In this document: piece by piece, positions 36,284 through 64,000 of the stretch
Layout: each line of letters begins with the position of its first letter
Numbering within the stretch: position 1 is the stretch's first letter
Assembly (NCBI GenBank): GCA_023151185.1
Contig: JAKLJL010000001.1
Span: forward strand, 248,001-312,000
DNA length: 64,000 nucleotides
Direction of reading: 5' to 3'
DNA from: Bacteroidota bacterium
Lineage (GTDB): Bacteria; Bacteroidota; JABWAT01
Notes under the pieces: generated by a model
Database searches by the model: none
Told to the model about the DNA's origin: nothing
What the model saw: the letters and a program-made list of their open reading frames with translations, nothing else
Made by a program: the position numbers and the translations under genes

Positions 36284-37199
36284 GGCTGGCGTTTCTCTTT
36301 TAACCGGCCAGTTCGAGGTTGTTTACCTGAATGACCGGACGCCGAGACCTGCCTCAGTTTTAGCCGCCTCCTGCCCGGATGCTTCTGCAATTCTCTGTCT
36401 TCTTTCAGACAGAATTGACGGGGCATTGATGGACCGGTTTCCACGGTTGGAACTTATTTCCAATTACGCAGCAGGGGTCAATAACATTGACCTTAAAGCT
36501 GCTGCTGCCAGAGGAATTCTGGTCTGTAACACTCCAGACGTGCTGACTGAGGCAACAGCAGATCTGGCTTTGGCTCTTTTACTTGCCGCTGCCAGAAAGA
36601 TTATCCCGGCAGACCGGTTTTGCCGGGAGGGAAATTTCAACGGATGGGCTTCTGATTTATTCTGCGGTTTCGGGTTTACCGGAAAACAGATTGGCATTAT
36701 CGGAATGGGTAAAATTGGTCTTGCCTTTGCCCGGCGGGCCGAGTCTCTTGGAATGTCGGTTGTTTATTCCAACAGAACGCCTAATCCGCTTGCACCCCCA
36801 AACTATAGGCTGACTGATCTGGAGTCTCTGATAAAGGAAAGTGATGTGGTGTCGCTTCACACACCGCTAACACCTGAAACCAGAGGGATGATGAATGCCG
36901 CCAGGTTTGCATCCATGAAAGAAGGATCCATTTTCCTGAACACAGGCAGAGGTGAACTTCACGATGAAGAGGCGTTGGTGACTGCTTTAGCTTCAGGTAA
37001 GCTTTTTGCCGCCGGCCTGGATGTTTTCGAAAAGGAACCCGGGATTCATCCGGGACTGCTGGCTTCCGGAAAGGTCGTTCTCACACCTCATATCGGGTCT
37101 GCGACGATCGAAACAAGAAATGCCATGGCACAGCTTGCAGCACAGGCCGTTTCCGATTGTCTGAATGGCAAAATCCCCCAGAACCGGGTGATAGTATGA
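36246..37199 (+). CDS. D-2-hydroxyacid dehydrogenase (glyoxylate/hydroxypyruvate reductase type)
   Basis: A 317-residue NAD(P)-dependent dehydrogenase. The Rossmann motif GIIGMGKIGLAFARRAESLG is at about residues 148-167; the catalytic triad is the Arg of NYAAGVNNIDL context, Glu in DVFEKEP and His in LTPHIGSAT, with NTGRGELHDEEAL before it. Members reduce glyoxylate, hydroxypyruvate or related acids. A frame extends upstream to 36207, but ATG 36246 (MKKQVLITQHI) fits the family. It still overlaps the pseudo-DHOase by 38 bases and its stop is overlapped by the histidine kinase start (ATGA). Confidence 0.88.
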   Translation: MKKQVLITQHIPEAGVSLLTGQFEVVYLNDRTPRPASVLAASCPDASAILCLLSDRIDGALMDRFPRLELISNYAAGVNNIDLKAAAARGILVCNTPDVLTEATADLALALLLAAARKIIPADRFCREGNFNGWASDLFCGFGFTGKQIGIIGMGKIGLAFARRAESLGMSVVYSNRTPNPLAPPNYRLTDLESLIKESDVVSLHTPLTPETRGMMNAARFASMKEGSIFLNTGRGELHDEEALVTALASGKLFAAGLDVFEKEPGIHPGLLASGKVVLTPHIGSATIETRNAMAQLAAQAVSDCLNGKIPQNRVIV

Positions 37200-40100
37200 A
37201 TTCAGGAAACCGCAGGGACTATCTTCTTCTTGCTTTCGGAATTTTGGTTCTCACTGTCCTGATGACGCTTGCCTGGTCAACTTCATCTGATCAGGAAAAT
37301 TATTCATCCGAAAAATTCAAACAATTTCTGATCATTCTTCAGAACGAATTTTCCTCCCAAACTGAAGAAGTGGAGCAAACCAGCCGCCGGATTTTTGGTG
37401 ATTCGGTTCTGACCTCCCTCATCCGGGACCGGAAATGGGAAATGGTCAGCACCGTATTGCACCAATATCCCAGGGAATTCAGTCTTTTTGTTGTTTCAAC
37501 CAAAGGAAAGCCCTTAGCCTGGACCGGTCTTACCAATGATCTGCTCGAACAGGTTAAACTGTTGCCCTACAGCCGGGTTCCCGTTCCGTTTCAAACCCAG
37601 GAAGCTGTCTATCTGATTGCTCAGAAATCGGTTTTCAGTCCGTCAAAAGAGGAATTCCGGTTGGTCGTGTTCAAAGTTTTGGGATATTCTAACCTGTACT
37701 ATCCGTCCTCGGCAGTTCCCCCGAGCCTTGCCGCTTCGCTTGCCGGTGAACTTTCCCTCAAATCGGTCCCGCTTGTTTCTCTATCGGGAGACAGGCAGAA
37801 TGTAAAACATCCGGTCAGGCTGGCTGCAGGTGTAGCCGGGCAGGATTCTGTCTTTTTTAATTTTGACCTGGATCAGTTAAATCTGGCTCTCGACAATAGC
37901 CTCAGAACTTACCGGCAAATGATTCATGCCGGAGTTTACCTGGCAGAATTCTCTGTTCTGCTGATTGTCATTCTGCTGCTTTTTCGCCTAAAAAGTCCAA
38001 GGAATTTATTTTTTGCACAGATTTCGGCTGTTTATCTGGTATTCTGTTTTCTGAATTCCTGGCTGTCACTGAGTTCGGTATTCTTTCCGGCAGAATATTC
38101 GGCCCCGGCCACGTACATTTCAAGGCAGACGTTCGGTATTTTCCCGGATTTCATTTCCTGGCTCGATTTCGGGTTAATGGGCTTTGGTGCTGCCCTGATC
38201 ATTTTATCATTTGAATTCCCAAAAAGAAAAACCCGGCCAGGTCCCGGCTTGTTTCTGACCTGGATCGGACTGGCCTCCTTCCTGATCTCGGTTTCTTACC
38301 TGTTTATCACCGAAATTATTGGCTCTCTGTTTCTTGACGGATTTGTTTCCGGCCTTCCGCTTGATGTTTCACTCTGGCAGCCTGCCTTTTGGCTTTTGGT
38401 TAGTTTCTCCGGGTTTTTTACGTTGGTTCATGCCGGTACGTGGGTGATCTACAAGGGATTTCATATCAGTTTTCTGAAAAAAGGCGGGGCTCTGATCTGG
38501 TCGGCCGGAGTGTTGGTCTCCTTTCTAATCTATTTCGGAATTCAGGTGATCTGGAATCCAAATCTGGCCGATCAGATCTGGTTCCATAGTATCATTTTCG
38601 GACTGATGCTGCTTGCTTTTGGCTATTCAGTCCTGAAACGCCTCAGGTGGCGCCATAATGTCAGATCCTTTTTTCAGTACGGATTGCTTCTGGCGCAGGG
38701 ATTCATCCCAGTCTTTTTCCTGTTCCTTCACCTTCTTGATACCCGGTTGGATGTCCTTCAGAAGAATTATGCAGTTAAACTGACCAACCCGAATGACGGA
38801 TGGTTTTTTTACCTGACGGATGAAACAACTGAATTATTAAAAGACCGGATCCTGCAGGAATCCGTTTTAACCAACCCGGATGGGAGCCAACAGGGTTTTG
38901 CTTACTCCGTATGGCTCCAGTCGACGTTAAGCCGGGAACGTCTGGATGTCAGAATCCGTGTTTATGAATCTGAATTGAACCTGATCTCGGAATGGCGGTT
39001 TGGAAGCCTGCCTCCTGCATCGTTTTTACAGGACAGTCTTGCTACCGATTCACTTAAGAAGTCTGCACCCGATGTAACCGACCTCAGGTTTCAGGTCAGG
39101 GAAAATGGCGAGAACCAGATTGGATTGATCCGGACGGTAGCCAAAATAAAATCCGGAACTGATTCTCTGCTTGGATTTTTTATCCTTGATGTTGTCAAAC
39201 CCAAATCCAGAACCGAAATATCGCAGCTTGGACTACTTTCTGCAGAAAATGAAGAATTCAGCACGCTGCATTTTTCCGGAGTCCGGTATGAAAAGGGGAC
39301 GGGGAGTGAGTTAATGGTCCTGCCGCTTTTTCCTTCCCGGCTGGACAGCACGATCCTCAGGCAGATTGATTGGTACGGTCAGGCTGAATTACTGAGGACG
39401 GAGGAGAATAAACTCTACCGGCTCTTTTTTTACCAAAACCCCAAATCGCCCGATGAAGTCTGGGCTGTTGCCCGGATGGTGAATACCCCAGTCTGGTACT
39501 GGAATCAATTTTCCTATTATCTGTTGCTGCTGATATTTGTCCTTCTCGGGACCTACTTTTTACTTCAGGCCGTGAATTGGTATAAAAACGGAAAGTTGGT
39601 ATTCAGTTTCAGGGAACGGGTTTTTGCTGGAATAATTACGGCTTCCCTGGTGCCGTTTTGGCTGCTGATTCTGTTTTTTCAGCAGTCATTCCAAACTCAT
39701 GCCGTCAATACATCCAAACTCCTGCTTGAAAATTACTATAAGGGAATTTTGCCGCAGGTTCGGGACCAACTGGCGGAAAAACCCGGTAAAATTCAAACTG
39801 GTGATCAGGATTATCTGCTGTACAAAAATGGCCAGGTACTTTTTTCCACCCGCCCCGAATGGATTAAACTGAATCTGATGCCCGATTGGTCAAGCGATGA
39901 GTTTCTGCCGGAAAGGTCGGGCTCGGGTGCAGTTTCCATCCGGTATCAGGAATATTTTCTGAATGATATCCGGTTCATAGTCGGGTACTACCCGGTTCCT
40001 GCAGAAGGAAATGACCAGATTGTGCTGGCAATTCCGAATCTGCTGACCAAGCAGCAGGCCGAAGGTGAAATAGATTCTGCAAGAAGCTATCTGGTTGGCG

Positions 40101-40990
40101 GATATGTTCTGTTTATTCTGTTTCTGGTTATTTTCCTTTCTGCCTGGATTAACTGGCTTTTAAAACCTCTCAAGATTATTGAAAATGCCTTTACCAGTAT
40201 CGGAAGGCAAAAGGATCCGGTTTTTGTTGAAGTCAGGGGAGTGCCCGAAATGGAGGAATTTGCCCGGTCATTCAATAAAATGGTTGGTGATCTGAACCGG
40301 TATAAAACCAGTCTTGCTTCGGCAGAACGGCAGCTCGCCTGGCAGGAGATGGCCAAGCAGGTTGCTCATGAAATCAAAAATCCGTTAAACCCGCTGAAAC
40401 TGAACACCCAGCTTCTGATCAGTCTGTTTCAAACCAAAAACCCCAAATTTGAGCAGGTTTTTGAGAAAATGTCGAAAACCATTTTAAACGAAATTGAAAC
40501 GATTGACAGGATCGCCAAAACATTTGCAACCTACTCACGAATGCCTGAACGAAACCCGGCACCATTGGATTTGTTCTATATTGCCGGGGAAACCGCCCGT
40601 TTATACCGGTCAGATGTGGTTGAAATCGAGTTGACTTCGGCTGGTGAACCGGGTATGGTTCTGGCAGATAAGGATGAGATGTCGCGGGTGTTTAATAATC
40701 TGATTAAAAATGCTGTTCAGGCTGGTAAAAAGGAATCTGCCAGGATCGAGATCAGTTTTACTTACCAACCAGGCTGGCTGAAAATCGCCGTTCTGGATTT
40801 TGGCAAAGGGATTCCGTCAAATCTAATAAAACAGGTCCTCGAACCCAATTTCAGCACGAAAACGGATGGAATGGGGCTGGGACTTTCGATTTGCCGAAAG
40901 GTGATCCAGGACATGCGGGGTGATTTGCAACTGTCGAGTCAGGAAGGGGAGTGGACCCGGGCAGAAATTCTGCTGCCGGTTATTTCCTGA
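37196..40990 (+). CDS. Large multi-pass NtrY-like sensor histidine kinase
   Basis: A 1264-residue kinase. A first membrane helix (about 10-29) is followed by an extracytoplasmic part to about 240, then about eight closely spaced helices (about 245-525), a second extracytoplasmic part (about 530-770), two helices, a third (about 850-960), a last helix at about 965-988, HAMP, HisKA and HATPase. The phospho-acceptor His1058 lies in MAKQVAHEIKNPLNPLKL, the NtrY-type H-box; NNLIKNAVQAG is the N box and GKGIPSNL and GLGLSICRKV the G boxes. It starts within the stop of the dehydrogenase gene. No response regulator lies nearby. The 3' end overlaps a convergent gene by 11 bases. Confidence 0.9.
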   Translation: MNSGNRRDYLLLAFGILVLTVLMTLAWSTSSDQENYSSEKFKQFLIILQNEFSSQTEEVEQTSRRIFGDSVLTSLIRDRKWEMVSTVLHQYPREFSLFVVSTKGKPLAWTGLTNDLLEQVKLLPYSRVPVPFQTQEAVYLIAQKSVFSPSKEEFRLVVFKVLGYSNLYYPSSAVPPSLAASLAGELSLKSVPLVSLSGDRQNVKHPVRLAAGVAGQDSVFFNFDLDQLNLALDNSLRTYRQMIHAGVYLAEFSVLLIVILLLFRLKSPRNLFFAQISAVYLVFCFLNSWLSLSSVFFPAEYSAPATYISRQTFGIFPDFISWLDFGLMGFGAALIILSFEFPKRKTRPGPGLFLTWIGLASFLISVSYLFITEIIGSLFLDGFVSGLPLDVSLWQPAFWLLVSFSGFFTLVHAGTWVIYKGFHISFLKKGGALIWSAGVLVSFLIYFGIQVIWNPNLADQIWFHSIIFGLMLLAFGYSVLKRLRWRHNVRSFFQYGLLLAQGFIPVFFLFLHLLDTRLDVLQKNYAVKLTNPNDGWFFYLTDETTELLKDRILQESVLTNPDGSQQGFAYSVWLQSTLSRERLDVRIRVYESELNLISEWRFGSLPPASFLQDSLATDSLKKSAPDVTDLRFQVRENGENQIGLIRTVAKIKSGTDSLLGFFILDVVKPKSRTEISQLGLLSAENEEFSTLHFSGVRYEKGTGSELMVLPLFPSRLDSTILRQIDWYGQAELLRTEENKLYRLFFYQNPKSPDEVWAVARMVNTPVWYWNQFSYYLLLLIFVLLGTYFLLQAVNWYKNGKLVFSFRERVFAGIITASLVPFWLLILFFQQSFQTHAVNTSKLLLENYYKGILPQVRDQLAEKPGKIQTGDQDYLLYKNGQVLFSTRPEWIKLNLMPDWSSDEFLPERSGSGAVSIRYQEYFLNDIRFIVGYYPVPAEGNDQIVLAIPNLLTKQQAEGEIDSARSYLVGGYVLFILFLVIFLSAWINWLLKPLKIIENAFTSIGRQKDPVFVEVRGVPEMEEFARSFNKMVGDLNRYKTSLASAERQLAWQEMAKQVAHEIKNPLNPLKLNTQLLISLFQTKNPKFEQVFEKMSKTILNEIETIDRIAKTFATYSRMPERNPAPLDLFYIAGETARLYRSDVVEIELTSAGEPGMVLADKDEMSRVFNNLIKNAVQAGKKESARIEISFTYQPGWLKIAVLDFGKGIPSNLIKQVLEPNFSTKTDGMGLGLSICRKVIQDMRGDLQLSSQEGEWTRAEILLPVIS

Positions 40991-52521: not shown

Positions 52522-53483
52522 GAGGCTGGTTTAAAACTGCAGTTTCAGTTTTTCTTTTTTTACTTTGGGGTTGCTCTTCCCGGTTCACGGGGACGGAAGC
52601 TAAACAGAATCCGGAAGAAGTAAAGGTACTCAGAACAGACCTTCAGGCACTTGCAGATTCCTTTCAGGCCGGCAGGTTTGAGTTTGTCTCCTGGTTTTCA
52701 GGAAAATTACGTCCCAGTGTGACTGAGTTTCTTTCAGCCGAAGGAGCCTGGCTGGCCAATACCCGGGGACTTGCGTTTTTTTATCAGCAAAAAAATGACA
52801 GTGCCTTAACTGAATTTGAATTCGCAGTCTGCATGGATTCAGGTTATGCAGAAGCCTGGAATAATAAAGGACACCTGCTGCTGCTTTCCGGCAGACTGGA
52901 TTCAGCAGAAATCAGTTTCAGAAAAAGCCTCCTTTTGAATCCCGATTATGATCCCGCCCGGCTGAATCTTGAAATTACCGGATTGTTTAAATCCGGGGAA
53001 CTGAACTGGCAGGATCTGGGGCTTATGTCCATTGCAGATTCAACCCGAAATCCTGAAGAAAAAGTCAGAATTTACACCCAGCTTTTAAACCTCGCACCCT
53101 TTTATGTTCAGGTATATAACAATCTGGCTGTAGCAGAATATCAGACGGGCAGTATTAACCAGGCTTTTCAGCATTTAAGTGCAGCTGTTATTTTAGATCC
53201 GACTTATGCCATGGCTCATAACAATCTGGGCTATATTTACCATGAGTATGGTTTGTATGAAGATGCCATCCGTCATTATCTGATTGCCATCCGCCTCAGA
53301 TTTAATTTTTTTACAGCACTCGAAAACCTTGCCTTTACTTACCTGACAACCGGAGATGTTAAGAATGCGAGGCTTGTCATCAACCGGGTACTTGAAATTG
53401 AACCCGGCAGAAAGCAGGCACTTGAACTGGATCAGCAGGTGAAAGAGGCCGAAAATCAACTTACTCAACAGGAATCACAATGA
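52518..53483 (+). CDS. TPR-repeat lipoprotein
   Basis: A 321-residue protein. Signal peptide with lipobox LLWGC (Cys19). TPR units lie at about residues 77-155 and 195-300 (AWNNKGHLLLLSGRLDSAEISFRKSL; VYNNLAVAEYQTGSINQAF; AHNNLGYIYHEYGLYEDAI). It begins in the stop of the C25 peptidase gene and overlaps the manC start (both ATGA), so the three are expressed together from the promoter at 47960. Its placement suggests an envelope partner of the peptidase or of its secretion. That is inference from context. Confidence 0.8.
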   Translation: MRGWFKTAVSVFLFLLWGCSSRFTGTEAKQNPEEVKVLRTDLQALADSFQAGRFEFVSWFSGKLRPSVTEFLSAEGAWLANTRGLAFFYQQKNDSALTEFEFAVCMDSGYAEAWNNKGHLLLLSGRLDSAEISFRKSLLLNPDYDPARLNLEITGLFKSGELNWQDLGLMSIADSTRNPEEKVRIYTQLLNLAPFYVQVYNNLAVAEYQTGSINQAFQHLSAAVILDPTYAMAHNNLGYIYHEYGLYEDAIRHYLIAIRLRFNFFTALENLAFTYLTTGDVKNARLVINRVLEIEPGRKQALELDQQVKEAENQLTQQESQ

Positions 53484-54556
53484 ATTATGCCGTCATTATG
53501 GCCGGCGGAAGCGGTACCCGGTTCTGGCCGGTGTCACGAACTGCTACACCCAAACAATTTTTAGCCATCACCGAACAGAGAACCATGATCCAGGCGACGG
53601 TTGACCGTCTTCTGCCGGTCTTCCCGAAAGAAAATATCCTGATCGTTGGCAACCAGGCTCACGAAACGCTGCTGACTGAACAACTGCCTGAGTTTACTGC
53701 CGATCAGTTTATTCTTGAACCTTTCGGAAGAAATACGGCACCCGCAATCGGGTTGGCTGCCGCAGTTCTCCGGAAAAAAGACCCCGAAGCTGTTATGCTG
53801 GTCGTTCCCTCTGATCAGATTATCCGGAAACAGGACCATTTTCTTGAAATTGTCAAAGAAGGCCTGCTTCTGGCCAAGGCCGAACCTCATGCCCTGATTA
53901 CCCTGGGTTTGAAACCTTCCCGTCCAGAAACGGGGTATGGGTACATCCAGATTGATGAAGATTTTCACCTCGACAGCTACCCGAATGCTTTCCCGGTAAA
54001 AACCTTTGCTGAAAAACCTAACCTTGAAACTGCCCGCCGGTTCCTTGCTGCAGGCGATTTCCTGTGGAATTCAGGGATGTTTATCTGGCAGGCTGAAACC
54101 ATTCTTCAGGAAATTAAAACCCATATTCCGGATCTGGATATTGAACTTGATGCATTGAGTCCGTTTTTCGGCACTTCCGGTTTTTATCCGGTTCTGTCGG
54201 AAAGTTATGGGCGGATGCCCAATATCTCGATTGATTACGGAATCATGGAAAAAGCCGGACTTGTTTTTGTTCTGAAAGCTGATCTGGGTTGGTCGGATGT
54301 GGGATCCTGGGATGAAGTGGCAAACCTTTCACATACCGACGAAAATGCAAATGCCCTTACAGGAACCGTTCTGGTTTCGGGAACATCGAACTGTCTGGTG
54401 AAAGGGAAGGAAAAACTAATTGCACTTGTCGGGGTTGAAGACCTGATTGTGGTCGAAACAGCCGATGCACTTTTAATTTGCCGGAAAGGCCAGAGTCAGC
54501 AGGTAAAAAATATTGTTGATCAGTTGAAAATTGGTGATTTTGGCGGGTATCTTTAG
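53480..54556 (+). CDS. manC: Mannose-1-phosphate guanylyltransferase
   Basis: A 358-residue nucleotidyltransferase making GDP-mannose from mannose-1-phosphate and GTP. VIMAGGSGTRFWPVSRTATPKQFL is the pyrophosphorylase signature at residues 5-28, followed by LEPFGRNTAPAIGLAA, LVVPSDQII and FAEKPNLETA; the Mg/sugar site includes WNSGMFIW. There is no C-terminal isomerase domain, so it is the single-function form. It provides the substrate for gmd-fcl upstream. ATG overlaps the stop of the TPR lipoprotein gene. Confidence 0.95.
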   Translation: MNYAVIMAGGSGTRFWPVSRTATPKQFLAITEQRTMIQATVDRLLPVFPKENILIVGNQAHETLLTEQLPEFTADQFILEPFGRNTAPAIGLAAAVLRKKDPEAVMLVVPSDQIIRKQDHFLEIVKEGLLLAKAEPHALITLGLKPSRPETGYGYIQIDEDFHLDSYPNAFPVKTFAEKPNLETARRFLAAGDFLWNSGMFIWQAETILQEIKTHIPDLDIELDALSPFFGTSGFYPVLSESYGRMPNISIDYGIMEKAGLVFVLKADLGWSDVGSWDEVANLSHTDENANALTGTVLVSGTSNCLVKGKEKLIALVGVEDLIVVETADALLICRKGQSQQVKNIVDQLKIGDFGGYL

Positions 54557-54580
54557 ATTTTAAAGATTTCGGGACCTTTC

Positions 54581-55021
54581 ATGTTTCAGGTTCACCTCCG
54601 TTTTTCGGCTCTGGTACTTTTGGCGGTCCTGCTTCTGGCCGGGTGTTCGGGAACGGCACGGTTTACTTCAGATAAAGAGTCCGGGCGGGTTGTTTTTAGA
54701 GGAAAATCCCAGGAAGCAACCGGCACATCCACAGAATTTGCCGGAGTTGCCAGTTATTACGGACCCAAATTTCACGGCCGGAAAACTGCCAGCGGCGAAA
54801 CCTTCGATATGTACCAGTACACTGCAGCCCACCGGGCCCTGCCGTTCGGAACCCGGATCCGGGTGACCAACCAGAATAACGGTAAAACTGTGGTTGTCAG
54901 AGTCAATGACCGCGGTCCCTTTGTCAAAAACCGGATTCTGGACTTGAGTTATGCAGCCGCCAAGGAAATTGACCTGGTCACTGCCGGCACTGCTCAAATC
55001 TCCATTCTGATCCTGAAATAA
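54581..55021 (+). CDS. rlpA: RlpA-like septal lipoprotein (lytic transglycosylase)
   Basis: A 146-residue lipoprotein (lipobox LLAGC, Cys22) with one double-psi beta-barrel domain, residues about 48-145: GVASYYGPKFHGRKTASGETFD, AAHRALPFGTRIRVTN and VRVNDRGPFVKNRILDLS. The His of AAHRALPFGT and Asp of NDRGPF are the catalytic pair known from Pseudomonas RlpA, which cleaves naked glycan strands. The C-terminal SPOR domain of longer RlpA proteins is absent, so recruitment to the septum would need another route. It is 25 bases after manC. Confidence 0.92.
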   Translation: MFQVHLRFSALVLLAVLLLAGCSGTARFTSDKESGRVVFRGKSQEATGTSTEFAGVASYYGPKFHGRKTASGETFDMYQYTAAHRALPFGTRIRVTNQNNGKTVVVRVNDRGPFVKNRILDLSYAAAKEIDLVTAGTAQISILILK

Positions 55022-55029
55022 CAGGAGTT

Positions 55030-55827
55030 ATGCTGAAACGTCACATCACCCTGATTTCAGATTTTGGATCCCGGGATTATTACGTTCCGTCCTTAACTGC
55101 CAGAATTGCAGATATCAACCCGGATGCATCCGTCCATCATTTGTCCCATGAAGTTGGCCGGCAGAATATTGTCGAGGCTGCATTTACTCTCCGCAATGCC
55201 TACCCCTTTTTCCCGTCAGGAACCATTCATGTCATCATCGTGGATCCAGAGGTTGGTTCTGACCGGGATGCGGTTGCTGTTGAGCATGACGGACATTTTT
55301 TCGTTGCGCCGGATAACGGTATCCTGACACTTGCCTTGCAGACAACCCATCCTGAAAGAGTGGTCTCGATTAAAAATTCCCCTTATGCAGATGCCATTGT
55401 TTCTCCTGTTTTTCACGGGCGGGATATTTTTGTCCCTGTCGCCGCCTGGATGTCACGGGGTGTGCCACTGCAGATTACGGGTGTTCATAAACCGGAACTG
55501 ATCGATTTAAGATGGGGACTGCCATCCTGGGACCGCCAGAAAATAGCAGGTCAGGTCATTCATATCGATCATTTCGGAAACCTGATTACCAATATCAGTG
55601 AGAAGTTTCTGGATCATTGGGCCGGCGGGGCCGGTTTCAAAGTTGGAATGGCCGGTTGGGATCCGTTGCCGCTGTCTAGAATTTACAGTGATGTTGAGCC
55701 GGGTGATCCGGTGGCGCTGATCGGTTCTGGCGGGCTGCTCGAAATCGCAGTGTATCAGGCAGATGCTGCAGCACTTTTTGATGTCAGAATCGGAACACAG
55801 ATCATTGTCAGCCGGGAGGTTTCCTGA
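55030..55827 (+). CDS. SAM hydroxide adenosyltransferase (DUF62 family)
   Basis: A 265-residue protein of the fluorinase/chlorinase-like family, the common member of which hydrolyses S-adenosylmethionine to adenosine and methionine. N-terminal domain: ITLISDFGSRDYYV, DASVHHLSHEV, GTIHVIIVDPEVGSDR, APDNGILTL. C-terminal barrel: HIDHFGNLITNI and LIGSGGLLEIAV. Length is that of the hydrolases, and no halogenase-specific insertion is apparent. Preceded by AGGAG; nine bases after rlpA. Confidence 0.88.
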   Translation: MLKRHITLISDFGSRDYYVPSLTARIADINPDASVHHLSHEVGRQNIVEAAFTLRNAYPFFPSGTIHVIIVDPEVGSDRDAVAVEHDGHFFVAPDNGILTLALQTTHPERVVSIKNSPYADAIVSPVFHGRDIFVPVAAWMSRGVPLQITGVHKPELIDLRWGLPSWDRQKIAGQVIHIDHFGNLITNISEKFLDHWAGGAGFKVGMAGWDPLPLSRIYSDVEPGDPVALIGSGGLLEIAVYQADAAALFDVRIGTQIIVSREVS

Positions 55828-55844
55828 TTCTCAGACTGGTTAGA

Positions 55845-56117
55845 ATGAAATTTTCACCGGCAGAAACCAGCAGGTTTCTGGATGTTTTTTATCAGTCACG
55901 CCCGGTGATCCTTTCCGGATTCGGGTGCTCCCGTCTGGAGCTTTTCAGGTTGCCCGATGACCCTGATACCGTTATCACCCTGTCTGAATGGGAAAGCACC
56001 GGCCATCTGAACCGGTATAGGGAATCTGAATTTTTTACTGAAACCTGGAAAACCATCCGGCCCTGGATGGTGGAGGCGCCAATCGCAGAATCCTGGAATC
56101 CGGCAGACCAGCCATGA
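55845..56117 (+). CDS. Antibiotic biosynthesis monooxygenase (ABM)-fold protein
   Basis: A 90-residue ferredoxin-like protein of the ABM family. The pattern SRFLDVFYQSRPVILSGFGCSRLELFRLPDDPDTVITLSEW with EFFTETWKTIRPW is typical of these small dimeric domains, which include heme oxygenases, quinol monooxygenases and many of unknown role. It overlaps the following methyltransferase by four bases (ATGA). No substrate can be assigned. Confidence 0.78.
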   Translation: MKFSPAETSRFLDVFYQSRPVILSGFGCSRLELFRLPDDPDTVITLSEWESTGHLNRYRESEFFTETWKTIRPWMVEAPIAESWNPADQP

Positions 56118-56863
56118 AAACAGTATTGGTGTCCGGATTTCAGAAAGTACCCGGTTCTGCTATCCCCTGGTTTAAATCCGGGAAGAAAAAAGACCCCAAC
56201 AGGTTGACTCTGGCTCAGAAGTCGGGTTTCTGGAAGCTGACCGCCTGGGGATATGAAAAATTCTGGCGGCTGAAATCACTGGGTCTGCTTACCGGAAACC
56301 GGATTACCGTTTCGGAAGAGCTCAGGATTTTGTCCGGATATTTATCTGCCCTTCCCGAAAACCCGGCGGTTTGTGATTTGACCTGCTCAACCGGACTTTA
56401 CGGCAGAACAGTTCTGGAAACCGTTCCGGGCTCACGAATTTATTTTCTGGATGCTAGCCCGGCCATGCTGGCTGGCACCGCCAAATCAATACGGGAAGGG
56501 GATTATGGCCGGGTGATTCTTGCTGAAGCTTTTTGCGAAGATCCTGTTTTCCTGCCTGAGTCTCTGGATGCGGTGATTTGCGGCGGCTCCTGGAATGAGA
56601 TCACGGCCGTAATGGAAACCGTGAACCAGACTTTTCTGTCGTTGAAACCGGGGGGATTGACTTTCTGGATGGGAATTCTGCCTGCTGTATCCCGGTTTGG
56701 CAAACTATTCCAGAGACTGGCGGTTCTTTTCGGCGGACTTCGGTTTGATCCGGAATCCAGAATTTCCGAACAGTTCAAACTTGCAGGATTTGAGGAAATC
56801 AGGATTTTTTCTGTTGCCCCGGTGTTTATTCTGACAGCAAAAAAGCCGGGGAAAAATGGGTAA
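56114..56863 (+). CDS. Class I SAM-dependent methyltransferase
   Basis: A 249-residue protein. Motif I is VCDLTCSTGLYGRTV near residue 93 (an unusual DLTCSTG for DLGCGTG), motif II IYFLDASPAML, and the acidic LDAVICGGSWNEI is motif post-II; LSLKPGGLTFW is motif III. It resembles UbiE/Coq5-like small-molecule methyltransferases. It overlaps the ABM-fold gene by four bases and the HAD gene by eight, so all three are co-expressed. Target unknown. Confidence 0.82.
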   Translation: MKTVLVSGFQKVPGSAIPWFKSGKKKDPNRLTLAQKSGFWKLTAWGYEKFWRLKSLGLLTGNRITVSEELRILSGYLSALPENPAVCDLTCSTGLYGRTVLETVPGSRIYFLDASPAMLAGTAKSIREGDYGRVILAEAFCEDPVFLPESLDAVICGGSWNEITAVMETVNQTFLSLKPGGLTFWMGILPAVSRFGKLFQRLAVLFGGLRFDPESRISEQFKLAGFEEIRIFSVAPVFILTAKKPGKNG

Positions 56864-57542
56864 GCTTATTCTGTTTGATATAGACGGAACCTTGCTTTCA
56901 GTCCCGGGAACGGCTCAGAAAATGGTTCAGGAAGCACTTCATCTTTCGCTCGGCCCCCGGTTTTCGCTTCCGTACCAGTCGTTTTCGGGCAGAACCGACT
57001 GGGAAATCTTCAGGGATACACTATCAGAACACCATCAGAACCCCGATCAGCCCGAATTGTGGGAAAAGTTTTGCCGGATTTACACCTCCCTTTTTCACAC
57101 TCAGGTCACCCGGAGTCAGGTAATCGTTCATCCGGGTGGAAGGGAACTCCTCAAACGGGTTTCAGAAACCACCGGTTTTTTTCCTTTTCTGCTTACCGGT
57201 AACATCCGGGAAACGGCTTTTCAGAAACTGAGGCTTGCAGACCTGGATTCCTTTTTTCACTCGGGTGGATTTGGTGATGACCACTGGATCCGTGAAGAAC
57301 TCGGGCCCGTTGCCGTTAGCCGGGCAGTCAGGAAATTTTCGACCCGGTTCACACCGGGTGACCTTGTTGTGATCGGGGATTCACCCCGTGATGCAGCCGT
57401 TGCACGTCATCTGGGGGCAGTTTGCATCGGGGTAACCAATGGTCTTCATTCTGCAGATGAACTTTCTGCAGCCGGCTGCCGGTTTGTGGTTTCCTGCCTT
57501 CAGGATGCCGAACCAATTCTGTTCGCCTCCTCGACTAATTGA
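56856..57542 (+). CDS. HAD-superfamily phosphatase (phosphoglycolate phosphatase-like)
   Basis: A 228-residue HAD hydrolase with motif I LFDIDGTLLS (Asp nucleophile), a helical cap (about 18-90), motif II LLTGN, a Lys/Arg in motif III, and motif IV VIGDSPRDAAVARHLG. Architecture fits the Gph/PhnX-like group; substrate is not assignable. Starts inside the methyltransferase gene (eight-base overlap). Confidence 0.85.
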   Translation: MGKLILFDIDGTLLSVPGTAQKMVQEALHLSLGPRFSLPYQSFSGRTDWEIFRDTLSEHHQNPDQPELWEKFCRIYTSLFHTQVTRSQVIVHPGGRELLKRVSETTGFFPFLLTGNIRETAFQKLRLADLDSFFHSGGFGDDHWIREELGPVAVSRAVRKFSTRFTPGDLVVIGDSPRDAAVARHLGAVCIGVTNGLHSADELSAAGCRFVVSCLQDAEPILFASSTN

Positions 57543-57583
57543 CAGGCTCTGCTTATTTTGCAGTTTTTCCGGATTTTTCTTTG

Positions 57584-58801
57584 ATGGCAAGATTTCTCTT
57601 TTCTTTTCTGGTGATTTTCTGTTTGTGGTCTGCGCAGGCACAGAAAAAGACCCTTGTCCTTTCCGGATGGGCAACTTCACCGCAGGAACGGGATGACCTC
57701 AAGAAAAAGACAGAAATTTATAATTCCCTTCAGAAAAAAGTCAGTGTTAGTTATGAACCGGTGATGATGACCGATTATTACAACCAGAATCTGGTTGGGA
57801 AGATCAAGTCGGGCAATTCACCGGATGTTTTCTATCTGAGGGATGCCGATATCCGGTTTTATCTCGGGCTGGAAGCAGTTAAACCAATTCAGACCTTTCT
57901 GCAAAAGGCAGGCCTTGGCCAGGAAACCTTATATAAACCCTGTGCCGATGCTTTTGTTGTAAACGGTCAGGTTTATGCCATACCGAAAGACTTCAACATT
58001 ATCGGGCTGACGGTCAATGAAAAACTGAGACGCCAGGCTGGTCTCCCGGATAAAGGCCCCGAATCAATAGCTGATCTTGAAACCTGGCTCGAAAAAATGA
58101 ATGGGGTTGGCGGCGACCCGAAAAGAAAAGGGTTAGTGGCATCCGGTCACGATTTCGAAATTCTTCCCTTCATATCACAGGCAGCAGGTGCCGGCTGGAA
58201 TATTGCAGCGCCCGGTGAGCGGGAACTGCTGCCGGGATTGCGGCTTTATTCCTCACTGACATCGAAAAACCTGCTTCTTCTCGACTTTAATGTCCAGACT
58301 TCGATTCAGACTTTTGCCAGCGGAAAAACCGGATCGGTTATTCAGGGAATCTGGTTTTTTCCGCTGTTCAGAGATCAGTTTCCCGGTCTTGAATTTAAAA
58401 TTTACCCGTTGCCGTCTGCCGTTTCAGGGAAAAAACCGGTCACGGTTCTGACAACAGTTGGCTGGGCGGTTGCCTCATCCTGCAAAAATCCGCAGGAAGC
58501 AGTCGACTTTATCGCCTGGCTGGTCAGTTCGTTTAACTATCAGGACTGGTTAAAAAACGGGGTTGCCTTCCCGCCAGGGAATGAGGCAATCAGGCAGATA
58601 AAAAAAGGCCGTGAGTCAAGATTTGGTGCCCGGGAATTATTAGCTTCGGTGGATCAGACTTCCGGCCTGATCCGGATACCGCCCGAAGCAGTGGATGTTG
58701 TGTGCCGGGAATACAAATCGATGCTTGTTTCCTCGAAAAAGCCCGAGGATATTGTAAAAACAGTTCTTGCCCGGCTTGCTGAAAAGAAAGGACAGAAATG
58801 A
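57584..58801 (+). CDS. Extracellular solute-binding protein, family 1 (sugar type)
   Basis: A 405-residue periplasmic binding protein with a signal peptide (MARFLFSFLVIFCLWSAQAQ). The two-lobed type II fold is recognised from SGNSPDVFYLRDADIRFYL, VYAIPKDFNIIGLTVNEKL, IQGIWFFPLFRD and the hinge TTVGWAVASSCKNPQEAVDFIAWL. An earlier in-frame TTG (57539) would give a poor signal sequence, so ATG 57584 is chosen. No ABC permease or ATPase lies beside it. Its stop overlaps the start of a sensor kinase (ATGA), which suggests it passes ligand information to the kinase. Confidence 0.88.
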   Translation: MARFLFSFLVIFCLWSAQAQKKTLVLSGWATSPQERDDLKKKTEIYNSLQKKVSVSYEPVMMTDYYNQNLVGKIKSGNSPDVFYLRDADIRFYLGLEAVKPIQTFLQKAGLGQETLYKPCADAFVVNGQVYAIPKDFNIIGLTVNEKLRRQAGLPDKGPESIADLETWLEKMNGVGGDPKRKGLVASGHDFEILPFISQAAGAGWNIAAPGERELLPGLRLYSSLTSKNLLLLDFNVQTSIQTFASGKTGSVIQGIWFFPLFRDQFPGLEFKIYPLPSAVSGKKPVTVLTTVGWAVASSCKNPQEAVDFIAWLVSSFNYQDWLKNGVAFPPGNEAIRQIKKGRESRFGARELLASVDQTSGLIRIPPEAVDVVCREYKSMLVSSKKPEDIVKTVLARLAEKKGQK

Positions 58802-60690
58802 TCCGGTTTACACTGGCTACAAAACTGCTTGCCGCCTTTCTGGTTATCTTATCGCTGCTGATGGCCATTTCTGCCTACATGGCCATTTCGCGTGAGGCAG
58901 ACCGTCTCGAGTCTGACCTCATCAATCACTCAAAAACCCTTTCAGAACTGGGTTCAGGGCTGCTTTATGATGAACTTATCCAGAATTCCCCCATCCCGCT
59001 GCAGGCCAGAATGTCCAGTCTCATTAAACAGATGGATTATGCAGTAAACGTGACGTTTTTCGGTGTCAGGGGAAACCAGTATTATAATCATTCAGACAGT
59101 ATTGAAAGTACAGCCGATCTTACTGATTCTGCCCATAAAATTATTTTTGATCCGGAATCCTGGTTCGACACCAAATCGATTGCCATCAACCCAAAAACCG
59201 GAAATTATTTTTATGTGATTGTTCCGATTGTAACAAGAGGTATACCGTTAACTGAAGACAGCCGGTACGCTTTTAACGGCATTATTCAGGTTACCTTCTC
59301 TAAAGATTACATCCGGACAATGGTGAAACGGGTTTCAAACGGAATCATTGTGCTTTCTCTGATTCTTGCCGCCGGAGGCGGATTTCTGGCCTGGCTGTCT
59401 TCCCGGTATTTCAACAAACGGATTGAACGGCTCTCTTTGGCGTCTGCCGAATTTAAAAAGGGAAATTATAAGTATCGAATCGGTGAATTTTCTGCCGATG
59501 AACTGGGTGATTTGTCCCACGCTTTCAACGACATGGCGAAAGCAGCATCAGAATCATTTGAACAGCTTGAAGAAAAAAATGCAAGTCTTGAAAAACTGAC
59601 CTCCCGGTTGGTAAAAAGTGAGGCAAGAATCCGGTCCTTGTGGGAAAATGCCAGCGACAGTATTCTTCACCTCGAAACAGACGGAACAATCCGGTTTGCC
59701 AATTCCCGGTTTTTAACCCTGACGGGAAGCAATCTGGCCGTTATGCCTGAGAATCTGTTTCCTTTGGTTCAGGAATCTGACAGGCCCATTGTTTCCGGTT
59801 TTATTTCGTCTCTTCTGGACCATCAGGACCGGGCCGGATCGGCCATTACGTTTCAGTTGATCAACGGTGCAGTTGTTGAAATGACTGCGACCGAACTTTC
59901 TGATGAAACCGGTACCCTGGTGCAGGCCTTCATCCGGGATGTTACCGAACGGAAAGCCCTGCAGGAACAGTTGGTCCAATCGAGAAAAATGGAAACGGTT
60001 GGCCGTCTCGCAGGCGGTGTTGCCCATGACTTCAATAACCTGCTGGCCATTATTATCCCCAATACTGAACTGGTCAGAATGAGGACAACAGACCCGAAAA
60101 TTCAGCAGTATACCGATCAGGTCCTCAGTGCTTCGAAACGTGCGGCTGATGTTGTCAGGCACCTTCTCGATTTTTCACGCCAGAAGGCGATCGATTTTCA
60201 TGACCGGTCTGTTCATTCTGTTCTCGAAACAACGGTCGCCATGATGAAGGAACTGATCACAGACTCGATCAGGATCGAAACCGGCTTTTTTGCCCGGGAA
60301 GACCGGATTTCTCTGGATGAGCACCAGTTTATCCAGATGATGATCAACCTGGCCATATTTGCAAGAGATTCAATGCCTGCCGGCGGGACAGTCAGGATTG
60401 AAACCCGGAACGCAGGTATCCACAGAAATAATGCCCTTACCGAAATGGTCATGGTCAAGGTGTCAGATAACGGATCCGGGATCCCCAAGGAACTGCTTCC
60501 GAAAATATTTGAACCATTTTTTAATACAAAAAAAGTAGGAGAAGGAACGGGCCTCGGTCTTGCCGGTGTCTATTCAATCGTGCTCCAGCATAACGGAATT
60601 ATTGAAGTTGAATCTGAGGAAGGGAAGGGAACTTCATTTACACTGATGTTCCCGGCGGTCACTGTTTCACCCAACCAGGAAATACAATGA
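58798..60690 (+). CDS. Sensor histidine kinase with periplasmic, HAMP, PAS, HisKA and HATPase domains
   Basis: A 630-residue kinase. Helices at about 10-30 and 183-203 enclose a periplasmic domain of about 150 residues. HAMP at about 204-256 ([27 protein letters not shown]), a coiled linker, a PAS at about 278-390 ([21 protein letters not shown]), HisKA with His410 in [14 protein letters not shown], and HATPase with [23 protein letters not shown] and [13 protein letters not shown]. The H-box HDFNN places it in the PAS/hybrid-kinase-like group, yet no receiver domain is present and no response regulator is nearby. Coupled to the solute-binding protein gene. Confidence 0.93.
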
Positions 60691-61304
60691 AACCCATTAT
60701 AGTAGGAATTGCCGGCGGAACGGCTTCCGGAAAATCGACCATTACCAAACGGATTGCCGAACTGCTTGGGCCAGAAAAGCAGATTGTCATCGATCACGAT
60801 TCTTATTACAAGGATATCTCGGTTTATGGGGATACACCCATTACTGAAATCAACTTCGACCATCCGGATGCACTCGAAACCGGGCTTCTCATTGAACACA
60901 TCCGCCACCTGAAAAAAAATCAGGAAATTCAGATGCCGGTTTATGACTTTTCGACTCACCGCAGACTGAAAGAAACCCGCCACGTTGAGCCCCGGGATGT
61001 GATCATTGTAGACGGAATTCTCATCTTCACTGAAAGAAAACTCAGGGAATTGTGCAATATCAAGATATTTGTTGATACTGATGATGATGAACGGTTGCTC
61101 CGCCGCCTGAAACGGGATATTTCTGAACGGGGCAGATCCATCGACAGTGTCTTTACCCAGTATATCAATTTTGTAAAACCCATGCACCTGGAATTTGTTG
61201 AACCTTCGAAACGGTGGGCTGATATTATCGTTCCCCGTGGCGGCGAAAACGTGGTGGCACTTGAAATGATCGTTTCACGGATTCAGAAAATGATTGACCT
61301 CTGA
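60687..61304 (+). CDS. udk: Uridine kinase
   Basis: A 205-residue kinase phosphorylating uridine and cytidine for pyrimidine salvage. P-loop GIAGGTASGKSTITKRIA at residues 7-24, then DHDSYYKD, NFDHPDALETGLLIEH, PVYDFSTHRR, VDGILIFTERKLREL and DTDDDERLLRRLKRDISERGRS. Complete. ATG lies in the kinase stop (ATGA), and garK starts one base into its stop (TGATG). Confidence 0.97.
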   Translation: MKPIIVGIAGGTASGKSTITKRIAELLGPEKQIVIDHDSYYKDISVYGDTPITEINFDHPDALETGLLIEHIRHLKKNQEIQMPVYDFSTHRRLKETRHVEPRDVIIVDGILIFTERKLRELCNIKIFVDTDDDERLLRRLKRDISERGRSIDSVFTQYINFVKPMHLEFVEPSKRWADIIVPRGGENVVALEMIVSRIQKMIDL

Positions 61305-62398
61305 TGGTGCTTTCGCCTGACAGCCGGATTTTTATTTCACCAACTGCTTTTAAGGAATCCATAACTGCCCGCGGACTGACAGAATTGATTCAGTCCTGGC
61401 TTTTTAATCAGGGCTTCCGGAACCTGACTTCCTTCCCCGGATCGGACGGCGGAAACGGATTTCTGGATTCATTTTCTGCCGGACTTGATGGCCGGTTTAT
61501 CCAGATAAATATTCCGCTTATCGGAGCAAAAACCCACATTCAGGAACAGGTTTTTCTTTTTGATGAGGGGAAAAAAGCCGCCATTGAAACGGCCTCGGTT
61601 ATTGGACTGGAACGGATTCCTCCCGGCAAAAGGAATCCGCTGACCTACCATTCAGGACCTTTGGGCTATGCTGTTAAAACCCTGACTGCTTCTTTCCCTG
61701 ATCTGAGTGAAATCTGGATCGGGGTCGGCGGGACAGCTACCGTCGATTTGGGTGCAGGGTTACTTCATGGGCTGGGATTTTTGTTCCTGGACGGAGACGG
61801 AAATCGGGTTAATCCGGTTCCTTCTGACTTTAACCGGATTTCAAAACTGGTTCCGCCTGCTGAACAATTTCCCCGTCTGGTATTTCATTTTGATGTTCAC
61901 GTGCAGTCAAAACCTGGTCCGGGATCCTTTGCCCGGGTCTATGGCCCGCAGAAAGGACTCTTCCCTGAAGGGATCAGCCAGATTGAACGGGAGACTGTCC
62001 GGATGGCAGATCAATTTAATCTTGATCTCTCCCTGACGGGTGCCGGGGGCGGACTGGGACTTTTCCCTTCCCGTTTTCTATCCGCAGAATTTGTTCACGG
62101 AACCGCCAGAATCTCCGGGCTAAAGGCTTTTTCTGACCGGTTCGCCCAGGCTGATCTTTATATCACCGGCGAAGGCCGCCTCGATTCTCAGTCTCTGCAG
62201 GGCAAATGGGTGTCTGCCTTTTTGAAAACGGAAAAACCTGTACTTTGTATCTGCAGCAGTTCAGAAACAGGCCTGGATCTTCCCCAAAACTGGACGGTTT
62301 TTTCCCTTGACCGGCTTGAGCCCGACCGGGAGAAAGCCATCCGTCAGGTAAAACCTCTCATCCGGCGGATTCTCGGAAGCCTGGTTTCCGGTACCTGA
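61304..62398 (+). CDS. Glycerate kinase (GarK/GlxK type)
   Basis: A 364-residue type I glycerate kinase phosphorylating D-glycerate. ISPTAFKESITARGLTEL at residues 10-27, PGSDGGNGFLDSF, the GVGGTATVDLGAGLLHGLGF block, GPQKGLFPEGI, LTGAGGGLGLFPSRFL, and YITGEGRLDSQSLQGK. All are standard. Glyoxylate/hydroxypyruvate reductase at 36246 could feed glycerate to it. Shares one base with udk. Confidence 0.92.
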   Translation: MVLSPDSRIFISPTAFKESITARGLTELIQSWLFNQGFRNLTSFPGSDGGNGFLDSFSAGLDGRFIQINIPLIGAKTHIQEQVFLFDEGKKAAIETASVIGLERIPPGKRNPLTYHSGPLGYAVKTLTASFPDLSEIWIGVGGTATVDLGAGLLHGLGFLFLDGDGNRVNPVPSDFNRISKLVPPAEQFPRLVFHFDVHVQSKPGPGSFARVYGPQKGLFPEGISQIERETVRMADQFNLDLSLTGAGGGLGLFPSRFLSAEFVHGTARISGLKAFSDRFAQADLYITGEGRLDSQSLQGKWVSAFLKTEKPVLCICSSSETGLDLPQNWTVFSLDRLEPDREKAIRQVKPLIRRILGSLVSGT

Positions 62399-62430
62399 TT
62401 TCTGAAGCCGGCTTAGGTAATAAACTCACT

Positions 62431-63150
62431 ATGAAAAAAGTCATTTCAATTGATTTCTGGAACACCCTGGTTGATACCTCGGGCACTGAAGAACGGAAAT
62501 GCCTCAGGTCGGAAAAAAGCCTGGCACTGCTCAGGCAGCACGACCCGGACCTAACAGAAACCCGCCTGAATGCTCAGGTTAAAGCCGGCATTGACTGGTT
62601 TAATTCGGTGTGGGTTCAGGAGCACAAAACACCCCAGACTGGTGAACTGGTTGAACGCCTTACTGCCGGACTTAACATCGATCTTTCTGAAACGGAATCC
62701 GGAGAGCTTATCCGGATTTTTGAATCTGGTGTTTTGGTTGCGCCGCCGCTGCCTGCACCGGGTGTCAGGGAAATTCTCCCAGAACTTGCATCACGGTACA
62801 CTTTGGGAATTATTTCGGATACCCACTTTTCGCCGGGACGGGTTTTGAAACAACTGCTCGAAATGCATGGACTGGTGAACTATTTTTCTGTTTTCGCCTT
62901 TTCTGATGAAAGAGGGGTGTCTAAACCACACCCTGAAATGTACCGTCATATTCTGAGGGAATCGGGAGCAAAAGAAAGTGAAATGGTTCACATCGGCGAT
63001 ATGAACCGCACGGATATTGCTGGTGCCCGGGCCTTGGGAATTCATTCTGTCCTTTACACCGGGATAAACCGGGAGGATGAATCAGCAACACAGGCAGACA
63101 AAATTGCCTCCCATTGGCATGAAGTACCTGGCCTGATCACCGGTTTCTGA
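62431..63150 (+). CDS. HAD-superfamily hydrolase (haloacid dehalogenase-like)
   Basis: A 239-residue HAD protein. Motif I is SIDFWNTLVD: the nucleophile Asp is present but the second acid of D-x-D is Trp, as in haloacid dehalogenase-like branches with DFWGTL. Motif II is IISDTHF, and motif IV HIGDMNRTDIAGARALG. Cap domain in between (about 18-108). Start ATG 62431, 32 bases after garK. Substrate unknown. Confidence 0.83.
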   Translation: MKKVISIDFWNTLVDTSGTEERKCLRSEKSLALLRQHDPDLTETRLNAQVKAGIDWFNSVWVQEHKTPQTGELVERLTAGLNIDLSETESGELIRIFESGVLVAPPLPAPGVREILPELASRYTLGIISDTHFSPGRVLKQLLEMHGLVNYFSVFAFSDERGVSKPHPEMYRHILRESGAKESEMVHIGDMNRTDIAGARALGIHSVLYTGINREDESATQADKIASHWHEVPGLITGF

Positions 63151-63542
63151 TGATGACCGCAGGCTTTCAGGATGTGCAGGGATACTGGGAAGACTTCCGG
63201 GAGTTTTCATATGAGGAGTGGCTGGATTTGCTTCCCCAACCTGCCGGGTCCCCTCCCGATTATTCCTTTCTTGATGACTTCCATAGATTATACTTTGATG
63301 AGAATTTTTCTGGCCTGGCGCCGGTTATTGGCGGATCACCGGCAGGAATCCTGATCTATTCAGACCGGTGTCCCTGGGAAATTCAGTTTCTCGAGTGTTT
63401 CCTGCCGGCCGATCAGACCGCTGTTCTGGGTATGATCCTGACCAATCATCTGACTCTTCATTCACTTTCTGTCAAAAAGTTGTCTTTCCGTGTATGGTCT
63501 CATCAGGAGACGGTCATCACATTTCTGAAGTCCTCCCGTTAG
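63150..63542 (+). CDS. Small protein of unknown function
   Basis: A 130-residue acidic, cytoplasmic protein that starts on the last base of the HAD gene stop (TGATG). I do not recognise a domain. The C-terminal part, IQFLECFLPADQTAVLGMILTNHLTLHSLSVKKLSFRVWSHQETVITFLKSS, has the strand-helix spacing of a GNAT fold, but the acetyl-CoA loop (R/QxxGxG/A) is missing. It may be a diverged or decayed GNAT-like protein. Codon usage resembles neighbours. Confidence 0.6.
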   Translation: MMTAGFQDVQGYWEDFREFSYEEWLDLLPQPAGSPPDYSFLDDFHRLYFDENFSGLAPVIGGSPAGILIYSDRCPWEIQFLECFLPADQTAVLGMILTNHLTLHSLSVKKLSFRVWSHQETVITFLKSSR

Positions 63543-63669
63543 TAGAAGCGCTTGCATTGCGTTTTTTTTCTCCTTACTTTGCTTTCAACTCCTGTAAATT
63601 TCCCGGTTTTCTGATATCTTGCTTTGGTTACACCGGGATTCAGGACACGCAATCAACGGAGGATCAGCC
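63543..63669. other. Intergenic region before the CBM48-like exported gene
   Basis: 127 bases. A weak GCGCTTGCATTGCG inverted stretch followed by eight T at about 63562 may be a terminator for the preceding operon. No clear promoter match; a Shine-Dalgarno GGAGGA at 63659-63664 precedes the next ATG. Confidence 0.4.
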
Positions 63670-64000
63670 ATGTTCAAACAATTTGCCTTACTGGCATTAA
63701 CCGTGCTTATATCTGCACCGGCAGTTTTTGCCCAGGATTCTGTTACAGTTTACTTCAGGTATAGTCCGGCCACATCCATATTCAGAGCCTATCTGCCTGG
63801 CGAGTTTAATAATTGGGGCCCCAATTCGGCAGGAACCATTGCCGTGAATGCGCCTTCACTGATGACTCTTGAAAACGGGGTTTATACCAAATCCGTCCGT
63901 CTGAAAATCGGTGGCGGGTCCGGAACATCAGGCGGTAAAAATGGCTATCAGTACAAAATTCATGAACACAAAAGTTCAGACGGAAAAACCTGGAACTGGC
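63670..64000 (+). CDS. Exported protein with early-set (CBM48-like) domain, 3' end missing
   Basis: 110 residues are visible before the window ends. Signal peptide MFKQFALLALTVLISAPAVFAQ, then a beta-sandwich with the telling VYFRYSPATSIFRAYLPGEFNNWGPNS, the pattern of isoamylase/glycogen-binding (CBM48/E-set) domains. GGAGGATC gives a strong ribosome site. The full protein may be an alpha-amylase-family enzyme or a glucan-binding surface protein. With the CBM20-like esterase at 25615, it suggests some use of alpha-glucans. Confidence 0.7.
   Translation, partial: MFKQFALLALTVLISAPAVFAQDSVTVYFRYSPATSIFRAYLPGEFNNWGPNSAGTIAVNAPSLMTLENGVYTKSVRLKIGGGSGTSGGKNGYQYKIHEHKSSDGKTWNW

Follow-up and report, generated by a model that had tools for sequence, protein, structure and literature searches.

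In a Bacteroidota genome of 3.74 Mb (97.7% complete), we analyzed a 64-kb stretch of contig C11 (hereafter, the window) in which a predicted exported solute-binding protein (SBP) is encoded directly ahead of a membrane sensor histidine kinase (SHK), with a 4-nucleotide overlap between the two genes and no linked permease. Our analysis favors, with appreciable doubt, the interpretation of this pair as a binding protein-dependent sensor rather than a part of a transport system. The features on which this interpretation draws are the following:

57584..58801, + strand, SBP of the SBP_bac_8/SBP_bac_1 type, 405 amino acids (aa), with a Sec signal peptide (open reading frame (ORF) call from ATG to stop; Pfam)
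57584..57640, + strand, signal peptide of the SBP, residues 1-19, without a lipobox Cys (hydropathy; cleavage after SAQA judged by eye)
58798..58801, + strand, ATGA, the 4-nucleotide overlap of the SBP stop with the kinase start (ORF coordinates)
58798..60690, + strand, membrane sensor histidine kinase, 630 aa (ORF, Pfam, hydropathy)
58894..59331, + strand, periplasmic domain of the kinase, residues 33-178 approximately, about 150 residues (hydropathy)
59401..59544, + strand, HAMP domain, residues 202-249 (Pfam)
59623..59955, + strand, PAS region, residues 276-386 (PAS_8 at 276-326 above the cut-off; PAS_4 at 282-386 sub-threshold)
60001..60186, + strand, HisKA or dimerization and histidine phosphotransfer (DHp) domain, residues 402-463, with H410-D411-F-N-N414; phospho-His codon at 60025-60027 (Pfam, alignment)
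60316..60657, + strand, HATPase_c domain, residues 507-620 (Pfam)
60346..60375, + strand, N-box, residues 517-526, with Phe521 (codon 60358-60360) in the position of the conserved Asn (alignment with solved kinases and orthologs)

The SBP matches two Pfam models (PF13416/PF01547) above the gathering score, SBP_bac_8 (E = 3.3e-17) and SBP_bac_1 (E = 3.9e-15). Its single hydrophobic stretch (residues 1-19 by hydropathy), in which no lipobox Cys was seen by eye, suggests export to the periplasm. The closest solved structures in a profile search are MBP1 (4r9f, E = 1.5e-17), a sugar SBP (4qrz) and an arabino-oligosaccharide SBP (6rjy). The tryptophan of the GxW motif of 4r9f aligns with W257, which is kept in all four orthologs of the SBP; judging by family membership, a sugar or an oligosaccharide is the probable ligand. 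In the kinase, two transmembrane (TM) segments (residues 1-32 and 179-202 by hydropathy) flank the periplasmic domain. The size of this domain, the HDFNN sequence of the H-box and the PAS region were all described correctly in the initial annotation, as was the lack of a receiver, none being present among the Pfam matches. The pair has three hallmarks of an SBP-SHK couple, namely, adjoining conserved genes, a predicted exported SBP of a known family, and a two-TM kinase with a periplasmic domain. The description of the two proteins as 'fused by translation' was overstated: the stop and start codons do overlap, but these are two separate ORFs, and the junction of the kinase gene with the downstream uridine kinase gene (udk) overlaps likewise.

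The conservation of the pair was assessed in its class, represented by four genomes (the present one and G001, G002 and G003, also the four of the family), and in a phylum sample of 394 genomes. A close relative of the SBP is present in all four class genomes and in none of the other 390; SBP matches were obtained in 40 of the 394 genomes, with identity above 40% only in the four class genomes and at most 32% in the other rows. Identity among the orthologs is 39-47% for the SBP and 39-59% for the kinase. At each of the four loci (the window, L013, L014 and L016, the last from G003), the pair, with its 4-nucleotide overlap, is followed by udk and a glycerate kinase gene, so that the gene pair, whose conservation the initial annotation had proposed to check, holds in all four class genomes. 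This recurrence is more than chance. The kinase-udk junction, by comparison, is an overlap in two of the four genomes and a gap of 12 or 18 bases in the other two. Kept as it is within a compact cluster, the SBP-kinase overlap shows coupling inside that cluster but by itself is no proof of a complex. In a tree built from 36 SBPs (those of the four pair loci; 11 of the 40 fetched SBPs of the C21 type described below and the C21 SBP of the same genome; 19 of 26 distant SBPs; and the SBP encoded on contig C20), the pair SBPs form one clade (support 100/100) whose stem is 2.42 changes per column long. Two rows of this tree, L039 and L041, are labelled permease-linked, yet there is no permease in their short loci. 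As far as the phylum sample shows, the pair is confined to a small group of uncultured Bacteroidota.

The absence of a nearby permease, noted in the initial annotation, is borne out: there is no match to BPD_transp_1 in the window and no MalF/MalG-like frame at any of the four pair loci or in L062 and L063, the contigs of L014 and L013, respectively. By contrast, a MalF-like frame is present at 23 of 26 loci encoding a distant relative of the SBP (these were examined out of 43 SBP rows outside the class). The window SBP belongs to the SBP_bac_1/8 family of carbohydrate uptake transporter 1 (CUT1) importers and is not accompanied by the MalF/MalG-type permease of such an importer.

Under the favored interpretation, SBP and kinase would form a single receptor. 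The exported SBP would close on a small sugar or oligosaccharide in the periplasm, a ligand class suggested by the family, and the closed form would dock on the kinase's periplasmic domain; the HAMP and PAS domains would then relay the change to the DHp domain. The SBP would be no transport component. All four orthologs keep the phospho-His, H+1 Asp and H+4 Asn but have lost the N-box Asn; instead of autophosphorylating strongly, the kinase may therefore signal by control of a phosphatase, or by reverse phosphotransfer, with an unlinked response regulator as the target. Both the docking and the phosphatase bias are predictions from sequence features.

The kinase is most similar, among proteins of solved structure, to CckA (5idj, E = 1.5e-41), and CckA is also the best NCBIfam model, albeit far below the cut-off (233 against 1000 bits). 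In the alignment, NLAVNARDA of the CckA N-box lies opposite NLAIFARDS of the window kinase, and the structures of CckA, LvrB, ZraS and KinB all have Asn opposite Phe521. Across the four orthologs, this position is occupied by Phe, His, His and Phe. H410, D411 and N414 are present in all four; the G1 box is intact in all four, G2 in three (GTSLGL in G003) and the F box in three, and the HATPase_c scores range from 62 to 79 bits. The window kinase accordingly shows the phospho-His, H+1 and H+4 residues and the G1 and G2 boxes expected of an active HisKA kinase, and lacks the N-box Asn. The Asn is kept in all 41 C21-type kinases used for comparison (as N390) and in L124 and L125, two of the four sensor relatives that were looked at; in the other two, L127 and L129 (the latter cut by the locus end), a simple motif search found no N-box. 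It is also kept, within NNLIKNAVQA, in the other histidine kinase of the window (37001-40984, + strand), whose HisKA and HATPase_c domains close a 1328-codon open frame, the gene start of which was not set.

PMC8292422 assigns the N-box Asn a role in phosphoryl transfer and describes it as highly conserved among HisKA kinases. Its loss in all four orthologs makes an ordinary kinase cascade doubtful, and the window kinase is perhaps impaired in autophosphorylation and biased toward the phosphatase reaction, the latter being a realistic prospect that we nonetheless put below even chances. The loss was missed in the initial annotation and makes a phosphatase output likelier than was supposed there. 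The EnvZ N347D protein likewise lost this Asn and is kinase-negative and phosphatase-positive (per a title cited in PMC2688746), but is a laboratory mutant. In DrBphP, as portrayed in PMC8292422, His occupies both the N-box Asn position and H+1, and no kinase activity could be detected in the protein, which is a phosphatase.

Between-domain differences in conservation lend this bias weak support. With domain borders of our own setting, DHp is more conserved than the catalytic and ATP-binding (CA) domain both in the pair kinases and in the comparison kinases. The gap is 14 and 15 percentage points in two congeners, inside the range of 3.5-18 observed for 40 comparison kinases, and only the comparison with the G003 kinase (L016, 7620-9503), with 38% identity in CA vs 69% in DHp, or 31 points, falls beyond the control maximum of 18. 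The CA domain of the G003 kinase is more eroded than those of the congeners, with GTSLGL in G2, as if decaying further in that genus.

Several observations weigh against the sensor scheme with a phosphatase output. The G1 and G2 boxes look intact in four and three orthologs, respectively, so ATP might still be used despite the missing N-box Asn. DrBphP, which is a light sensor, is without the H+1 acid too (PMC8292422), whereas the window kinase has retained it. Adjacency does not prove interaction: according to PMC11113362, the kinases AgtS and AruS of Pseudomonas aeruginosa were not bound by the SBP_bac_8 proteins encoded in their vicinity. The periplasmic domain of the kinase might itself bind a ligand directly; a MalF/MalG pair is encoded elsewhere in each of the four genomes, so that sharing is conceivable; and the neighboring genes (udk, glycerate kinase, HAD-type hydrolase) point to no ligand or regulon. 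Finally, because close relatives were found in four genomes only, co-evolution of SBP and kinase is not measurable.

One alternative is a variant of the favored interpretation and not exclusive of it: a binding protein-dependent sensor in which the kinase is active in the ordinary way and the N-box substitution is tolerated. The apparent integrity of H410, D411 and G1 and, in three of the four proteins, of the F and G2 boxes speaks for it, together with the HATPase_c scores and the congener DHp-CA gaps within the control range, and it is countered by the replacement of the Asn in every ortholog and by the wide gap and altered G2 box in G003. We regard this variant as possible, if short of probable.

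A second alternative is that the kinase senses its ligand directly through its periplasmic domain, the SBP being merely co-transcribed or a bystander in a tight housekeeping cluster. The other members of this cluster are:

56856..57542, + strand, HAD-type hydrolase, 41 bases upstream of the SBP start (in place in three of the four genomes, not in L016)
60687..61304, + strand, uridine kinase, udk (TIGR00235 above the cut-off; a neighbor of equal length in all four class genomes)
61304..62398, + strand, glycerate kinase (profile matches; a neighbor in all four class genomes)

As the initial annotation had it, udk and the glycerate kinase gene follow directly; the overlaps are 4 nucleotides between kinase and udk and 1 nucleotide between udk and the glycerate kinase gene. 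SBP, kinase and downstream genes presumably share a transcript; a promoter scan of positions 53000-64000 yielded 8 sites vs 11.1 in shuffled sequences. The tight packing throughout the cluster, including the kinase-udk overlap in two genomes, is what direct sensing by the kinase would have in its favor, as are the P. aeruginosa precedent of neighboring SBPs and kinases without binding (PMC11113362) and two distant sensor relatives from the phylum, L125 and L129, which lie beside CxxCH-rich, cytochrome-like genes and in whose short loci no binding protein was seen by eye. However, an SBP that has no transporter and adjoins a kinase needs some role, the SBP-kinase overlap is kept in all four genomes, and the SBP is clade-specific, on a long stem. 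We consider direct sensing unlikely.

The remaining alternative, transport through a distant permease, was addressed by a survey of whole genomes. Of the three BPD_transp_1 matches in the present genome, two are the MalF/MalG pair of C20 and the third is a single permease on C4 (L005), which adjoins, as judged by eye, a polar amino acid-type binding protein and an ATPase. Its three SBP_bac_8 matches are the C20, window and C21 SBPs. Five permease pairs of the three relatives lie beside an SBP_bac_8 match (C50 and C1 of G001, C20 and C26 of G002, C11 of G003); these were taken as being of the MalF/MalG type, with a BLAST check on G001 C1 only. The other permeases of the relatives (G001 C95 and C82; G002 C23 and C15; G003 C2) resemble, by eye, sulfate, taurine and phosphate systems, each beside a binding protein, and the G002 C15 locus is 85-97% like that of G001 C95. 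Thus, the orphan permeases that the initial annotation suggested looking for did not turn up: no MalF/MalG pair without an adjoining SBP was seen in the present genome or in the three relatives. That the window SBP feeds the C20 permease, sharing it with the permease's own SBP and standing next to the kinase for regulatory reasons or by accident, is improbable: a MalF/MalG pair does exist elsewhere in all four genomes, and importer parts can be scattered, as with the separately encoded ATPase of CuaABC in Ruminiclostridium cellulolyticum (PMC10384115, in its description of that importer), but the C20 pair (L004) has its own SBP directly upstream, to which the window SBP has no BLAST match at 1e-4 (the G001 ortholog matches it with E = 3e-7 over 173 residues).

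In the phylum-wide matches to the SBP query, frames of 768-877 aa were suspected to be SBP-kinase fusions, a suspicion that was rejected when all five loci examined proved to carry a MalF-like part. The single long frames of these loci (L020, L024, L025, L033 and L034) have matches to MalF as well as to the SBP query and are probable SBP-permease fusions; the examination covered five of the seven long-frame rows, the other two being G115:C19 and G013:C20.

The same genome encodes a second SBP-kinase couple without a permease, on C21 (L012:3181-7451), which speaks for the sensor interpretation of the window pair. There, three consecutive genes encode an SBP with an N-terminal anchor (435 aa), a 493-aa kinase and a receiver-containing sigma-54 activator of 485 aa, with a gene for GH26 on one side and one for a CE2 esterase on the other. 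The C21 SBP matches 57 of the 394 genomes of the phylum sample, some weakly. In each of the best 40 places after the original one (L081-L120), the SBP, kinase and regulator are encoded in this order on one strand, with the regulator running off the contig in L092, and none of these 40 loci contains a MalF/MalG-like frame. An FT-x-RIYH-xx-HKAEK block is invariant in the kinases of this type, and for the C21 kinase itself Pfam gives no HisKA match. In the regulators, D63, T92 and K118 are retained. GH26 neighbors were matched over more than 500 residues in five of the loci (L081, L082, L083, L085 and L088); the remaining 'GH26' matches reach about 150 residues and probably reflect a secretion tail. 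The 12 C21-type SBPs included in the tree form a clade apart from that of the window SBP (100/100), which makes separate origins of the two couples probable. The C21 module appears to be a three-component system that is widespread in Bacteroidota, and our literature searches found no description of an SBP-kinase-sigma-54 module in Ignavibacteria or Bacteroidota.

The window pair itself lacks the cognate regulator in the operon that characterizes three-component systems of the CuaDSR type. No receiver match occurs in the window, consistent with the earlier remark that no regulator lies next to the kinase, and the nearest one on the contig is about 48 kb away. The genome-wide search for response regulators that had been suggested yielded 85 receiver matches, 83 of them above the cut-off and several in frames of stand-alone length (118-160 aa), and singled out no partner; the partner regulator would thus be unlinked.

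The initial annotation proposed a binding protein-mediated sensor and compared it with LuxP/LuxQ. The proposal stands as the best reading, given the conserved pair and the lack of an orphan MalF/MalG pair, but LuxP/LuxQ is not the nearest system, the SBP_bac_1/8-type protein being nearer to CuaD of R. cellulolyticum. LuxQ is a hybrid kinase that carries a receiver, and LuxP belongs to another binding-protein family; the window pair has neither a receiver-bearing kinase nor a LuxP-family SBP. XylFII-LytS of Clostridium beijerinckii, HptA-HptS of Staphylococcus aureus and the Geobacillus stearothermophilus system, AraPST, are encoded next to a regulator and control genes for the transport of sugars or sugar phosphates, and their kinases are of families different from that of the window kinase. 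Like these three systems, in which sensing SBPs work with a kinase (as outlined in PMC10384115 and PMC8534201), the window pair would combine sensing by an SBP with signaling by a kinase. LuxP is, similarly, a soluble periplasmic SBP acting via the periplasmic domain of a kinase, which in LuxQ consists of tandem PDC domains (in the summary given in PMC8534201).

In the CuaD/CuaS/CuaR system, as reported in PMC10384115, a family 1 sugar-type SBP distinct from the transport SBP is encoded together with a kinase, CuaS, which at 627 aa and with a HAMP domain is close in size and layout to the window kinase, and CuaD binds the extracellular part of CuaS in a two-hybrid test. The Cua system differs in having the regulator in the operon, an extracellular part of about 265 aa, an SBP predicted to be a lipoprotein and an adjoining transport operon (same source); the window pair has no regulator, a periplasmic part of about 150 aa, a predicted soluble SBP and no transport genes, and has lost the N-box Asn.

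SBP-kinase couples are an already known kind of system, to which the window pair adds the loss of the N-box Asn and the lack of a linked regulator or permease. Around ten such couples have been characterized by the count in PMC9602780, and in the survey in PMC11113362, 10 of 11 characterized couples are encoded by neighboring genes. For SBP-activated receptors, the latter names Proteobacteria, Firmicutes and archaea in a list that opens with 'including'; Bacteroidota do not appear in it.

The present Bacteroidota genome contains two unrelated SBP-kinase couples without permeases. If the window kinase indeed is a phosphatase, ligand sensing through an SBP would have an output opposite in sign to the usual one. 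To our knowledge, no SBP-kinase couple of such a phosphatase-gating sign has been described, and our literature searches, with subscription literature mostly beyond their reach, found none; nor did they find a paper on the window pair or the C21 module. The full scheme, in which the SBP gates the phosphatase activity of a natural kinase-negative HisKA protein such that an unlinked regulator would be drained of phosphate, not loaded with it, when the nutrient binds, is doubtful as a whole. Found in all 40 relatives examined, the C21 module offers many natural variants for testing docking and co-evolution, which the window pair alone cannot.

The periplasmic domain of the window kinase has no Pfam match above the cut-off and no sequence match in the PDB. 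The sensor region was detected in the four class genomes and, with one weak BLAST match, in a fifth (5 of the 394), and with a profile search, six genomes beyond the class also gave weak matches (10 of the 394 in all). AlphaFold2 models built with three sequences each had a mean predicted local distance difference test score (pLDDT) of 48.1 for kinase residues 1-258 and 37.5 for the SBP, both too low to use. The order of long helix, strands and long helix in the former hinted at a PDC/Cache-like fold, for which neither Pfam matches above the cut-off nor PDB sequence matches gave support.

The weak relatives of the sensor region, L124-L127, L129, L130 and L068, match the window kinase by BLAST. 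The kinases at L125:1465-3366 and L129:1480-3288 contain CxxCH heme-type motifs in the periplasmic domain, near the CxxCH-rich genes. At L068:1504-3405, a GT20 domain (trehalose-6-phosphate synthase family) takes the place of the kinase, joined to a membrane sensor region with weak similarity (about 25%) to the one in the window kinase.

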